A DNA stretch of 64,000 nt from Candidatus Scalindua sp. SCAELEC01. GTDB lineage: Bacteria; Planctomycetota; Brocadiia; Brocadiales; Scalinduaceae. A model generated the notes under the pieces. That model made no database searches. It saw nothing but the letters and a program-made list of their open reading frames with translations, and was not told the origin of the DNA. The translations under genes were made by a program, and so were the position numbers. This document shows positions 17,238 to 27,196 of this stretch, piece by piece; within the stretch, counting starts at the first letter, position 1, and each line of letters opens with the position of its first letter. Where the stretch lies: positions 1 through 64,000 of the forward strand of contig SHMT01000020.1 of the NCBI GenBank assembly GCA_004282745.1, given 5' to 3'.

Positions 17238-20200
17238 TTAACGGCAGGGTACAAATCTCACAACAGTTTTTTTGTCCCTCACCACTTCTCCAAGAAGAGA
17301 TATCGTTCGATCGATCTCCTCCATTGTGTTACCAAGGCCTAAGGAGAAGCGAAGTGAACAGTGTGCCTCTTCTTCAGACAGTCCCATTGCCAGCAAGGCA
17401 TAAGACGGTTTCGGCGATCCGGAACGGCACGCTGACCCTGATGAGAGACTGACTCCTTTCTGATCAAGGGCAAGAACTACAGACTCACCTCGAATCCCCG
17501 GTAGAGTCATATTGAGTGTATTGGGTAATCTATTTTCAGAATTTCCATTCAGTTTTGCTTCAGCAATTAAAGACCGAATACTCCTCTCCAACTTGTCACG
17601 TAGTTTTTTCACCCTGCCCATTTCATGCAATCTCTGCACAGCAAGTTCAGCTGCCTTACCGAGACCGACAATTCCTATTACATTTTCAGTTCCTGCGCGG
17701 ATTCCTCCCTCCTGCTTTCCACCATTTATCAGTGGTTCTAAGCTAACTCCTTTGCGGATATATAAAGCGCCAATCCCCTTTGGCCCATACAACTTGTGGC
17801 CAGAAAGCGTAAGAAGGTCTACATCAAGCTCCATAACATCGATCTGAATCTTACCAATTGCTTGTACACAATCAGTATGAAAAAGAACTTTCCGTTCCTT
17901 CGCCACGCGCACCAGTTCTGCAATTGGCTGTAATGAGCCAGTCTCGTTGTTGGCCGTCATCACACTTACCAGACATGTCCTATCCGTGATCGCAGAGTGT
18001 AAAGCATCGGGATTGATGTTTTTCGTGTGATCAACCTCAAGGTAGGTTACAGAAAATCCATGACTTTCAAGCCACTTGCAGGTATTCATAACTGATGGAT
18101 GTTCTATCGATGTCGTAATAATGTGGTTTTTCCTATTCCAGTTTGAAAAGGCGACACCTTTTATGGCAAGATTGTTTGCCTCAGAGCCACTGCCGGTAAA
18201 TGTGATCCGCCGTGCCGTACAGTTAAGGAGCTGTCCCACACTTCTTCGTGCAGACTCAACGGCAAACTTCGCATCCTTTCCTTCGGTATAGATACTTGAA
18301 GGGTTTCCATGGCCGTTAGCGACATAGTGCTCCATGATCTCCTTCACTTCCTGGTCAAGGGGGGTTGTTGCATTGTGGTCGAGATAGATACGTTGTTCAG
18401 TTGTTTGGGATTCCTTAAAAGAGTCTTCCACCCCGATTGGGTCACCATACTCACCAGAATCAATTACCAGCTTCTCCTCACCCGCTGAAGCAGCGACCAC
18501 CTCACATAAGAGCGTCTTGTATACAGGAAATCCAGAAATAGGATCGTAACGCTGGAGATCGGTCAATTCATTGACATTACAATTTTGCCATCGATCTGGT
18601 CCGACAGGTCCTCCGCCACCCATGTTCGCATCAACTGATCCCTGTACAATATCATCCGTGACTAACGCACGCATGGTAACCTTACCCCGCTCGTTCATAA
18701 TATGTACGAGGTCACCATTATTAATACCCCGCTTTTCTGCATCAACGGTATTTATCGTTACCGTCGGTTCTGATCTCTCACGTAATAACCCGGGTATTCC
18801 ATGATGCTGAGATCGAAAGTCGGTGGTAACTCGGGAACCCGAATTGAAGATCAGTGGGAATCTTTCTGAAAGCTCTGGTTGTGCAAGCGGTCCCTCACCC
18901 GGTTCAGTATAGACAGGAAGTGGATCATAACCGTGCTCCTCTAGAATGGTCGAGGTTATTTCAAATTTTCCTGTTGGCGTGTCGAAGCCCGGTTTGCCAT
19001 CAGCTCGCAATAACCCCTTTTCCCACTTCTTATACTGCATTATTTCCGTAGGTATCTCTACCATTCCTTTTGCACTCTTCACCTCTTCAAGGGTAAAGCC
19101 CGAGCCTTTTAATACATGTCGTAGGAGTTCATCCTCATTTTGGGGATAGAGGTGCCCATACCCAAGACGTTGCGCCAGTTCTGCAAGGATAAAGAAATCG
19201 TTACGTGCCTCGCCTATCGGCTCTACAATCTTGTCTCGTATACGAAAAATTGGACCATACGTCATATATGACTCTATTTCATACATAGTTGTTGCCGGGA
19301 GTACAATGTCAGCATATGCGGCATCTGCCGTTAGCTGGCGATCAATAGTGACGAGAAAGTCAAGGCTATTCAATGTGTTTTTCCATATGGCGGGTTGAGG
19401 CCAGGAGGTAATAATTGAACCTCCGAGGATTATGAGGGAGCGGATAGGATACGGTTTTCCTTCCAGGACCGCATCCGGTAATGCAATTGCGTGAGACTCT
19501 CCGCGATATTCACTGTAGACAGGAAATCGTTCCCGACCGAGGGCCTTTCGAACATCGGGATTGGCAATGTGTCCTTCGCGATTAATAGGAAAATGGTTCT
19601 GCCGCATCGTAAAGCAACGTCCGCCCGGTACATCAAGCTGTCCCGCAATCGCCCAGAGAGTCATCGTAGCCCGAATGGCCTGTACACCACTGTCACTATA
19701 CTCAAGTCCCGTATACATAACTTTTGATGCACCATTTGCCTCTACAATCCTCCTGGCGAGAGACCTAATTGTATCGGCCGGGATGTCCGTAATAGTTTCC
19801 ACGGTTTCTGGTGTAAAATGTTGCACATATCTGACAAAATCTTCAAAGCCTACCGTCCAATTCTTTACAAATTCCTCATCATACAACTCCTCTACTATGA
19901 GTACATTACACATTCCGAGAGCGAGGGCACCATCCGTCCCGGAGCGAATGGGGATCCACTCCGCATGGGTAAGTTTTGCTGTCATGGTTCTTCTTGGATC
20001 AATGACCACAACTTGAGTTCCCTGCTTTTGGGCTTTTATAATCCTATTGAGATCAAGCGGTGGACAATCAGTAGCGGGGTTTGTTCCCCAGACTACAATC
20101 AATTGCGAATTTTCGATGTCAGAAAACATGTTCATAAGCATCCCCCCCATGGTTACATGGGGAGCAATCATAGCGAATGATACGTAACAGAGGGCACCTA

Positions 20201-20630
20201 CTCCCAACGTATTAGGCGAACCGAAGGGAAACAAAACACTCGATGCCGAAGAGACAGCGACCCCCTTTGGTTGAAAGAGATCACACATAGCAAGCTCGAA
20301 GCTTCCTCGCCCTGTATAAATGGCAGTAGCCTCCGGACCAGATTCATCCTTAATCTTATTAAGCTTTTCTGTAATGATTTCGTAAGCGTTATCCCACGAT
20401 ATCCTTTCAAATTCGAATGTCCCCTTCTCTCCTTTTCGCCGCATTGGATATCGTAAACGATCTTTGGAATAAACAATTTCTGCAGAATATTCTCCGAGCT
20501 TACATATCATCCCTAAATGTGAGCTGTTGTCAGCATGCACCGTATCAATTTTCCCCTCTTTGTTATAGGTAACCGTAACCCAGCACCCAGCCGGGCATAT
20601 GCCGCAGATTGCGTTTTTCTCAATATCCAT
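17238..20630 (-). CDS. Fusion: molybdopterin oxidoreductase + cysteine desulfurase
   Basis: 1130 residues in one frame. Residues 1-~725 form a molybdopterin oxidoreductase of the formate dehydrogenase/polysulfide reductase class. The 4Fe-4S ligands are C9, C12, C16 and C43, a candidate Mo-ligand cysteine is C148 (A-L-C-Y-V-S), and the C-terminal molybdopterin-dinucleotide-binding domain is present. Residues 747-1130 form a complete NifS/IscS-type cysteine desulfurase, with Y-L-D-H-N-A-T-T-P, PLP lysine K946 in S-G-H-K-L-Y-G and catalytic C1068 in S-G-S-A-C-R-S-G-S. Formate-dehydrogenase-type Mo enzymes need a sulfur ligand on Mo, supplied by IscS through FdhD, so a built-in sulfur donor is a reasonable inference. 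No signal peptide is seen. Confidence 0.9.
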   Translation of the reverse strand: MDIEKNAICGICPAGCWVTVTYNKEGKIDTVHADNSSHLGMICKLGEYSAEIVYSKDRLRYPMRRKGEKGTFEFERISWDNAYEIITEKLNKIKDESGPEATAIYTGRGSFELAMCDLFQPKGVAVSSASSVLFPFGSPNTLGVGALCYVSFAMIAPHVTMGGMLMNMFSDIENSQLIVVWGTNPATDCPPLDLNRIIKAQKQGTQVVVIDPRRTMTAKLTHAEWIPIRSGTDGALALGMCNVLIVEELYDEEFVKNWTVGFEDFVRYVQHFTPETVETITDIPADTIRSLARRIVEANGASKVMYTGLEYSDSGVQAIRATMTLWAIAGQLDVPGGRCFTMRQNHFPINREGHIANPDVRKALGRERFPVYSEYRGESHAIALPDAVLEGKPYPIRSLIILGGSIITSWPQPAIWKNTLNSLDFLVTIDRQLTADAAYADIVLPATTMYEIESYMTYGPIFRIRDKIVEPIGEARNDFFILAELAQRLGYGHLYPQNEDELLRHVLKGSGFTLEEVKSAKGMVEIPTEIMQYKKWEKGLLRADGKPGFDTPTGKFEITSTILEEHGYDPLPVYTEPGEGPLAQPELSERFPLIFNSGSRVTTDFRSQHHGIPGLLRERSEPTVTINTVDAEKRGINNGDLVHIMNERGKVTMRALVTDDIVQGSVDANMGGGGPVGPDRWQNCNVNELTDLQRYDPISGFPVYKTLLCEVVAASAGEEKLVIDSGEYGDPIGVEDSFKESQTTEQRIYLDHNATTPLDQEVKEIMEHYVANGHGNPSSIYTEGKDAKFAVESARRSVGQLLNCTARRITFTGSGSEANNLAIKGVAFSNWNRKNHIITTSIEHPSVMNTCKWLESHGFSVTYLEVDHTKNINPDALHSAITDRTCLVSVMTANNETGSLQPIAELVRVAKERKVLFHTDCVQAIGKIQIDVMELDVDLLTLSGHKLYGPKGIGALYIRKGVSLEPLINGGKQEGGIRAGTENVIGIVGLGKAAELAVQRLHEMGRVKKLRDKLERSIRSLIAEAKLNGNSENRLPNTLNMTLPGIRGESVVLALDQKGVSLSSGSACRSGSPKPSYALLAMGLSEEEAHCSLRFSLGLGNTMEEIDRTISLLGEVVRDKKTVVRFVPCR

Positions 20631-20777: not shown

Positions 20778-21776
20778 TTATGTAATTGGTGCAAATATAT
20801 TTATGCTAAAATGTTTCTCCGGGTCAAAATACTGCTTTTCTACGTAAAAACCTGCTGTTTTTGCTAATTCGTTAATGTCTTCAAGAGAATATTTATATGA
20901 GCTTTCCGTATGTATCTCCTCATTTTCTGTGAATGAAACGTCTAGATTAAGTTCCTCTATAAAGACCTTCTGCTCACAGCTACTGGTTAAATACATCTCA
21001 ATGCGGCCAATTTTCTCGTTGTATCTTGCCTCATGATGAAAGGTATCAAGGTCAAAATTGCCTCCCAATTCCCGGTTAATACGAGTGAGAAGATTCAGGT
21101 TAAATTCTGCGGTGACACCTTGTTCATCATCATAGGCTTTTTCTAAGATAGCTTTATCTTTCCTCAGGTCTATGCCGATGAGTAATCGATCATTCGGACC
21201 TATGAGCTCTTGGATGCGAGTAAGTACTTTTGCTGCCTCAGGCCTATCCAAATTACCAATACTCGACCCGAGCCACGTAATGAGCTTTGTTTGATCACCC
21301 TCACTCTTTAACTGATTAAGTCCTTCATCATAGTGGGCGGCAACCGCCGTGATCTCTAGATCCGTATATGTTTTGAGTAATTCGTATGAGCTCTCCTCAA
21401 GCATCTGTCGGGATATATCAATGGGAGTATAGCAACTCAGCCCCTCTCCTTGCAGAAAGGCTTCAATCAAAATTCTCGTTTTTTTTGCACTGCCGCTCCC
21501 CAATTCAACAAGTGTAATCTCTTTTGGAAACTGCGAAATGATCTCATCCACATAGATCGTAAGAATATTCGTCTCAGCTCGTGTAAGGTAGTACTCGGGA
21601 AGTTCACAGATCTTCTCAAACAACTGAGAACCGGTGTGATCGTAAAAGTGGACAAAGGGAAGCGATTTTGGGTATGATGTTAGACCCGTATTAACATCGC
21701 AGGAAAACTCGTTTGCGGAAGTCTCCTCTTCGGTTACAATAAACGTTAACCGCTCTTCAATCGTTAAAGTTGACAT
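20778..21776 (-). CDS. egtD: L-histidine N-alpha-methyltransferase EgtD
   Basis: 332 residues from the ATG at 21776, which has an aggag site 8 nt upstream. This SAM-dependent enzyme trimethylates histidine to hercynine, the first step of ergothioneine synthesis. The SAM motif is L-V-E-L-G-S-G-S-A-K-K-T, with T-W-L-G-S-S-I-G-N-L further on and the family pattern L-P-E-Y-Y-L-T-R-A-E near residue 70. EgtB, the partner that adds sulfur, is not in this window. Closely related homologues methylate other substrates, so the exact product is probable rather than certain. Confidence 0.85.
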   Translation of the reverse strand: MSTLTIEERLTFIVTEEETSANEFSCDVNTGLTSYPKSLPFVHFYDHTGSQLFEKICELPEYYLTRAETNILTIYVDEIISQFPKEITLVELGSGSAKKTRILIEAFLQGEGLSCYTPIDISRQMLEESSYELLKTYTDLEITAVAAHYDEGLNQLKSEGDQTKLITWLGSSIGNLDRPEAAKVLTRIQELIGPNDRLLIGIDLRKDKAILEKAYDDEQGVTAEFNLNLLTRINRELGGNFDLDTFHHEARYNEKIGRIEMYLTSSCEQKVFIEELNLDVSFTENEEIHTESSYKYSLEDINELAKTAGFYVEKQYFDPEKHFSINIFAPIT

Positions 21777-22252
21777 GATCGTATACTCCTTCAAAAAACT
21801 ATACACGAGTCTAGCAAATTCTTTTTCCCTGATTCTACGAACCTACCAGGATAGTGTCAGTGAGCAGGAAGGTTTCTTCATATACATTTTTTGATAACAA
21901 TGCAACGATTAATTTACAGGCTCTGACTTAAAAATATACTCCCTATTGCTGAAATAACAGGAGAGTACACTATATAACAATTAGGTGGATAATTCAAGTT
22001 GTTTGTGTCTCCTAATCGGCTATTCCTATTGCAAATTCTCTTTCAAATTTTAGATGATAAGCTCGATTGAAATTTTAATTTCGTATTTAATTTGAGCGCC
22101 TGTGCCGATTCAAAACTGTCCAGGTATTGTAGGTACAGAGGGTAGAAACTCGATGTGAAATAACAGGTAACCTGGACGTAGTCATGGAGTTGAGGATTAT
22201 TGGATTTTGCAGCAAGGCAGGAAATGACTCGTTATTGTTTAACCATTACATA
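21777..22252. other. Intergenic region between cstA and egtD
   Basis: About 475 bp without a gene. At 22107-22150 the text caaaactgtccaggta and gggtagaaactcg faintly resembles the two ends of repeat family A, but not well enough to call a copy. I see no terminator with a clear stem. Confidence 0.3.
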
Positions 22253-25696: not shown

Positions 25697-26725
25697 TTAC
25701 ATTACTCGTATTGCCACCCACCTGGCTCGATCAGATAAGTCATGTACATCGGTGAATTTAACTTTTATTGATCCCTGCTCTCTAAACACGAGCCATTTGC
25801 TTTCATTAAACGTAGAAGAAGGGGATTGCTCGTGCATTTTTACTGTTGATCCAAATACTGCAGCTTCTGCTACCGCATGTCCTCCAAACACAAATACCTT
25901 CCATACCGCTTCATCATTAATATCAAAAATTGCTTCAGTCTGGCCACTATCCAACATGGAGGTAACCCCCTTTAGTGAGTAGAATGTAGTGGCTTTGATA
26001 TCTCCATTTACTTCCAATTCTTCAGTTGGAGCGGTGGTGTTAATACCCACTTCTCCATGCTCCAGGATGGTAAAAACCTCACCTCTATCATCGTCAATAA
26101 ACCTCAAGGCATCAGCATCTCTCGTAATTGTCGTGTGTTCTCGATACGAGCCATCCCGTGAACTATTTCCCTCAAGGCGAATTGATGTCGATTTTTCATC
26201 TATTGTATATATATGAAAATCAACTTCAGGTGAACCGGTATGGATGCCGATCTCACCGAGGCGGTTGGATGAATCTTGTGTATGCTCCAGGATGGTGAAA
26301 ACTTCACCTCCATCATCATCAATAAACCTCAGTGCATGCGCATCTCTCACTATTGTCGTATGTTCTCGATACGAGCCGTCTCGTGAACTATTTCCTTCAA
26401 GACGGATCGATGTGAAATTCTCATTTTTTGATGACAGGTGGATATCTGTTTCGGGGTTTACGGTATTAAACCCAACATTACCAATATCATCAACGAATAC
26501 CACATCAGTCGGATCTCCATCTCTAGCATCGAGTGAATTACCAGCTCCTTCCACCGCTTCTCCGCTTGGTGGTGTCACTACAGGTTCCTCTTCCACCAGA
26601 ATGCTGTCTCCTCCTGTCGTTGTGCTCGAACTGTCCACCTCATAAGAAAAACTGTATGTGGAGAAACATGCAACAGATAATACAATCACTGACAAAAAGC
26701 GAAACCACTTCATTGATTTTTTCAT
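25697..26725 (-). CDS. Exported surface protein with tandem repeats, tail-fibre-like
   Basis: 342 residues with a signal peptide (about 1-30). Two long repeats share an almost identical core, S-I-R-L-E-G-N-S-S-R-D-G-S-Y-R-E-H-T-T followed by A-L-R-F-I-D-D-D, about 80 residues apart. Then comes a segment like those in phage tail fibres and S74-type proteins: V-G-I-N-T-T-A-P-T-E-E-L-E-V-N-G-D-I-K-A-T. No S74 autoprotease domain follows. It is probably a secreted or surface adhesin-like protein. A c-di-GMP-I riboswitch with terminator sits in its leader, which fits a role in attachment or matrix. The function is inferred from regulation and repeats. Confidence 0.75.
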   Translation of the reverse strand: MKKSMKWFRFLSVIVLSVACFSTYSFSYEVDSSSTTTGGDSILVEEEPVVTPPSGEAVEGAGNSLDARDGDPTDVVFVDDIGNVGFNTVNPETDIHLSSKNENFTSIRLEGNSSRDGSYREHTTIVRDAHALRFIDDDGGEVFTILEHTQDSSNRLGEIGIHTGSPEVDFHIYTIDEKSTSIRLEGNSSRDGSYREHTTITRDADALRFIDDDRGEVFTILEHGEVGINTTAPTEELEVNGDIKATTFYSLKGVTSMLDSGQTEAIFDINDEAVWKVFVFGGHAVAEAAVFGSTVKMHEQSPSSTFNESKWLVFREQGSIKVKFTDVHDLSDRARWVAIRVM

Positions 26726-26804: not shown

Positions 26805-26859
26805 AAAAAAGCCTCACAACTAAAGATATTCACCATGAATAATCCTTGGCAGTAAGGCT
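26805..26859 (-). terminator. Riboswitch expression platform: intrinsic terminator
   Basis: Read on the minus strand, agccttac (26852-26859) pairs with gtgaggct (26810-26817; one G-U), enclosing a small hairpin attca-tgg-tgaat. A run of T residues follows at once. The upstream arm is also the 3' part of the c-di-GMP aptamer, so aptamer folding and termination compete. Confidence 0.8.
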
Positions 26860-26938
26860 GTCTCTTAAGCTTCACTTCCTTGTCAACTTACGGACCCTTT
26901 TACTTTGCGTCCCCTGATTACTCAGGGTTTGCCTTTGT
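26840..26938 (-). ncRNA. Cyclic-di-GMP-I (GEMM-I) riboswitch
   Basis: On the minus strand the conserved GEMM-I elements appear in order: ggcaaacc, then a stem cctga/tcagg capped by a GTAA (GNRA) tetraloop, then gggacgcaaag, and at the 3' end agccttactgcc. Class I c-di-GMP aptamers have exactly this order, with the GNRA loop docking on a receptor. It lies about 115-210 nt upstream of the repeat-protein ATG at 26725. Because the 3' aptamer strand is needed for the terminator, ligand binding should favour read-through (an ON switch). That last point is inference. Confidence 0.88.
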
Positions 26939-27196
26939 TATAAAGCGTATAACACACAGACTTTTATTGAATAGAGACGATTCTCTACTGCTATGTTATT
27001 AAATACAATGCTTGTTGTCAAGTATGAAAATATGTTTTACATAAAAAAAGTAGTTAAATTTAAAGTATACCCTAGGTGTGGTCAGCAAAAGAGAATGTCA
27101 TGCATTGTCATATTGACAATTGTGGTAACCTATGTTTGTAAAATATGGAAAAGGGTTGTTCTTGAGGGAATTAATAGAAAACGGGGGAATAGAAAT

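Follow-up and report, generated by a model that had tools for sequence, protein, structure and literature searches.

A predicted metallopterin-dependent ergothioneine synthase in the anammox bacterium Candidatus Scalindua and relatives of the enzyme that lack a desulfurase module

A 64,000-nucleotide stretch of contig SHMT01000020.1 from Candidatus Scalindua sp. SCAELEC01 (GCA_004282745.1; hereafter, the window) encodes a single protein in which a molybdopterin oxidoreductase-type module is joined to a cysteine desulfurase, raising the question of what such an enzyme makes in an anammox bacterium. The initial annotation assigned it a formate dehydrogenase/polysulfide reductase-class role, with the attached desulfurase sulfurating the enzyme's own metal site. 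Our analysis indicates that the gene very probably encodes the anaerobic ergothioneine synthase MES (metallopterin-dependent ergothioneine synthase), and we infer from the sequence that it is active in its host. MES was described in 2022 from Caldithrix abyssi as an enzyme that makes ergothioneine without oxygen, and is defined by a metallopterin module that is fused to a cysteine desulfurase and co-encoded with EgtD (PMC9516567). Its discoverers consider it to be the first Mo/W enzyme that forms a carbon-sulfur bond (PMC9516567). The enzyme class and the fusion are therefore already known, and the additions made here are its occurrence in anammox bacteria and its desulfurase-less relatives.

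As first annotated, the mes frame is continuous, running from ATG to stop over 1130 residues with no internal stop codon (Table 1). Pfam analysis of the product identified Molybdopterin (residues 58-487), Molydop_binding (594-706), and Aminotran_5 (748-1108), each well over its cut-off, and the order of the modules in the chain, i.e., metallopterin at the N-terminus and cysteine desulfurase at the C-terminus, is that of MES. Judging from the domain limits, an earlier linker estimate of 20-25 residues was too short, and a value nearer 33 is appropriate. An AlphaFold2 model of the product (mean pLDDT 84.2, pTM 0.75) matched acetylene hydratase best in its N-terminal module and NifS/IscS/Nfs1 in its C-terminal module. 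Loops at residues 121-133, 144-153, 1067-1072, and 1121-1130, which surround C148, C1068, and C1129 and hence the putative sulfur path, were modelled with low confidence, and we therefore claim no distance from C1068 or C1129 to the metal. A scan for promoters and terminators returned matches no more numerous than those in shuffled sequence. Elsewhere in the window, a c-di-GMP-I riboswitch (26845-26943, minus strand, 58.4 bits) is located just upstream of a frame for an exported protein (25697-26725).

Table 1. Coordinates of mes, egtD, and standalone MES modules. Locus identifiers precede coordinates outside the window.
Feature	Coordinates	Strand	Basis
mes, metallopterin-dependent ergothioneine synthase, 1130 aa	17238..20630	-	Continuous frame; CaMES residue set and spacing; egtD neighbour
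N-terminal Mo/W bis-MGD module, residues 1-712	18495..20630	-	Pfam PF00384 and PF01568; 2E7Z is best solved relative (sequence, fold)
Interdomain linker, about residues 713-745	18396..18494	-	Domain limits; low pLDDT at 730-744
C-terminal NifS-type cysteine desulfurase module, residues 746-1130	17241..18395	-	PF00266, TIGR03402; IscS/NifS fold match
4Fe-4S ligands C9, C12, C16, C43	20502..20606	-	Position check; invariant in 38 members
C116 in MES-specific insertion	20283..20285	-	72/73 covering members and all 5 standalone modules covering the position
C148, predicted Mo/W ligand (C153 in CaMES)	20187..20189	-	Position check, published numbering, alignment
K946, PLP lysine (K952 in CaMES)	17793..17795	-	Position check, published numbering, alignment
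C1068, desulfurase persulfide cysteine (C1074 in CaMES)	17427..17429	-	Position check, published numbering, alignment
C1129, C-terminal relay cysteine (C1135 in CaMES)	17244..17246	-	Invariant in every complete fused member; ordinary desulfurases end without it
egtD, L-histidine N-alpha-methyltransferase	20778..21806	-	TIGR03438 368.6 bits, cut-off 290.9; 4uy5 E 5e-63
Standalone MES module	L088:5962-8148		egtD directly after
Standalone MES module	L089:1918-4107		egtD directly after
Standalone MES module	L092:3123-5312		egtD directly after
Standalone MES module	L090:485-2758		egtD directly after
Standalone MES module	L095:374-2536		Deltaproteobacteria bin

The functional residues published for the C. 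abyssi enzyme (CaMES) are C14, C17, C21, C48, C153, K952, C1074, C1097, and C1135 (PMC9516567). By this published numbering, rather than by sequence alignment, their equivalents in the window protein are, in the same order, C9, C12, C16, C43, C148, K946, C1068, C1091, and C1129. Steps within each module are identical, and the spacing between the modules is shorter by one residue. The product thus carries all of the essential MES residues, i.e., the 4Fe-4S cysteines, the metal-ligand cysteine, the PLP lysine, the persulfide cysteine, and the relay cysteine. The first seven positions in the series from C9 to C1068 had been named by the initial annotation and were found where it placed them, with both active sites intact. 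It had overlooked C1129, a conserved cysteine near the C-terminus that sits in a terminal motif absent from the free-standing desulfurases compared. Among 38 aligned full-length members, every CaMES-equivalent residue other than C1091 is invariant; mutation of the corresponding C1097 in CaMES lowers activity only twofold (PMC9516567). A further cysteine, C116, lies in an insertion spanning around residues 108-127 and is nearly invariant in MES, while it is absent from the non-MES superfamily members compared. The CaMES study did not mutate its counterpart (PMC9516567), and any part that it plays in admitting sulfur or in binding the substrate would be a guess.

The initial annotation also passed over egtD, located 147 bp upstream of mes on the same strand (annotated start GTG; an ATG is available at codon 11, 21776). 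The encoded protein scores above the histidine-specific TIGR03438 cut-off and aligns with M. smegmatis EgtD (4uy5) over its length, including the segments with the known histidine-pocket residues. In about 50 of the loci retrieved, the fusion has EgtD beside it. Since no protein in the genome passes the cut-off for EgtB, there is no competing oxygen-dependent route.

By analogy with the C. abyssi enzyme, from which the flow of sulfur is taken, EgtD would trimethylate histidine to TMH (hercynine), and the desulfurase module, with PLP on K946, would transfer sulfur from L-cysteine to form a persulfide on C1068. C1129, located on the flexible C-terminus, would then hand this sulfur on to the Mo/W site, which C148 holds, and a terminal metal sulfide would form. 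Ergothioneine would result when the metal-bound sulfur is taken up by the imidazole carbon of TMH, and the relay would re-sulfurate the reduced metal, making it ready for the next turnover. In CaMES, mutating C153, K952, C1074, or C1135 leaves no measurable ergothioneine, the desulfurase fragment yields alanine from cysteine, desulfurase-inactive and metal-site-inactive chains fail to complement each other, and sulfur exchange between ergothioneine and TMH persists without desulfurase activity (PMC9516567). These results indicate that sulfur in CaMES is supplied at each turnover and inside a single chain, with a persulfide relay as the probable route. For the carbon-sulfur bond step, the same study proposes that the imidazole attacks the metal sulfide; in that study the activity levels of MES homologues also spread over a thousandfold range (PMC9516567). 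The idea of a covalent desulfurase feeding the Mo/W site, advanced in the initial annotation, therefore agrees with the homologous enzyme, whereas one-time maturation of the cofactor does not, since sulfur is a substrate in every turnover.

These observations bear on two other readings of the locus. The first takes the protein for a formate dehydrogenase or a polysulfide/thiosulfate reductase in which self-sulfuration of the cofactor, occurring a single time, stands in for the IscS-FdhD route. It does belong to the same superfamily and has a cysteine metal ligand, and FdhD (PF02634) was not found in the genome (G000, 98.6% complete). However, scores against the equivalog models for the formate dehydrogenase alpha subunit (TIGR01591, 308 bits, less than half of the cut-off of 666) and for the thiosulfate/polysulfide reductase PhsA (NF012032, 285 bits against a cut-off of 694) are far too low, the EgtD neighbourhood is constant, and the homologous enzyme requires its desulfurase for turnover rather than activation. 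Family scores and gene context thus lead us to reject a self-sulfurating formate dehydrogenase as very improbable; the sulfur acceptor is instead predicted to be TMH from the adjacent EgtD. As a separate observation, G000 encodes several other Mo/W-pterin enzymes, yet FdhD was not found.

The second reading is that EgtD and the fused enzyme sulfurate or selenate another histidine derivative, yielding a betaine thiol or selenol other than ergothioneine. Action on selenocysteine is known for some NifS-type enzymes, and Scalindua-type EgtD is 33-43% identical to its counterparts at most other MES loci, so that its substrate could have shifted. However, the score and full-length alignment of EgtD described above, together with the unchanged MES active-site residues, make such a shift most unlikely. 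With respect to gene order, egtD is upstream of mes in Scalindua-type loci (the window, L009-L016, and L058), where its products are 62-72% identical among themselves and 55% in L058. In other anammox genomes it is downstream of mes and 39-41% identical to the Scalindua type, and represents a different lineage; one methyltransferase gene may have been swapped for another.

A search for the same two-domain order, as the initial annotation had proposed, showed that the fusion recurs in the nearest relatives and in many phyla. Among 392 genomes sampled from the phylum, nine, the window's own included, have it in one frame and a tenth (G258) has it in two frames. In this anammox relative (L017, G258:C1:3234549-3237934), MES is split near residue 457 into two overlapping frames, by a frameshift or a sequencing error. 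Full-length fusions with 58-83% identity occur in dozens of named genomes, the closest being Candidatus Scalindua genomes (82-83%), and fusion-bearing genomes are labelled Planctomycetota, Nitrospirota, Thermodesulfobacteriota, Chloroflexota, Gemmatimonadota, Actinomycetota, and several archaea. Since the fusion recurs in so many genomes, an assembly chimera was rejected.

The window protein (1130 residues) and CaMES (1136) share module order, functional residues at matching spacing, and a co-encoded EgtD; the main text of PMC9516567 names no anammox host. Acetylene hydratase (2E7Z), rather than a formate dehydrogenase, is the closest solved relative of the N-terminal module in both sequence and fold, as is likewise stated for CaMES (PMC9516567), but it has no desulfurase, hydrates acetylene, and lacks the C116 insertion. 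NifS/IscS cysteine desulfurases share the fold and active site of the C-terminal module, but are free-standing, serve many acceptors, and lack the C-terminal relay motif. Like MES, the rhodanese-type EanB produces ergothioneine from TMH without oxygen; however, it is an unrelated protein whose sulfur source is polysulfide (PMC9516567).

Across all fused proteins, the desulfurase modules group as one clade (SH-aLRT 98) in which a single free-standing member (L147) is nested, pointing to one fusion event; the N-terminal modules likewise form one clade against other superfamily members. The nested protein (L147:1501-2655) is a desulfurase of the MES type that carries KFIPCR as its C-terminal relay motif, and its genome also holds a fused MES (L141). 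The desulfurase is missing from five MES members, namely L088, L089, and L092, which are archaeal and related to one another, L090 from a Nitrospirae bin, and L095 from a Deltaproteobacteria bin. On a quick tree these occupied three separate positions, and an AU test on this trait-defined group rejected a single common clade (p-AU 9.8e-9). Nested in this way among fused proteins, they are disfavoured as an ancestral unfused state, and on this tree the fused desulfurase appears to have been lost at least three times.

The standalone modules of the Methanophagales-type archaea and the Nitrospirae bin are 74-75% identical to the Scalindua N-terminal module, and no NifS was found in the flanks of L088, L089, L092, or L090. 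In the L095 genome, the sole EgtD-like gene is on a different contig and slightly below the cut-off. No NifS-like gene was detected at 1e-10 in the archaeal genomes G393 and G395, an absence that is uncertain as genome completeness is not reported, and G392 and G394 hold just a distant one. The locus in G395 looks decayed. A copy of the standalone MES and egtD with a decayed look was noted in a Methanomicrobia genome (L108:6080-8050). A frame judged by eye to be flavodoxin-like follows egtD in the three archaeal loci (L088:9278-9928, L089:5204-5854, and L092:6619-7164) and is a possible partner of the standalone module. The main text of PMC9516567 describes the fused form only, and the covalent desulfurase of CaMES is obligatory (PMC9516567). 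We give roughly even odds to a branch of MES working without a fused desulfurase, with C116 as a candidate sulfur entry point in both forms.

Our results predict that anammox bacteria (Scalindua, Kuenenia, Jettenia, and relatives), which are anaerobes, make ergothioneine without oxygen; no publication in the literature collection searched pairs anammox with ergothioneine. If the standalone enzymes are functional, their sulfur would come from another donor, such as sulfide, polysulfide, or a carrier protein. The desulfurase-less relatives allow the need for intramolecular sulfur transfer in MES to be examined in naturally occurring proteins.
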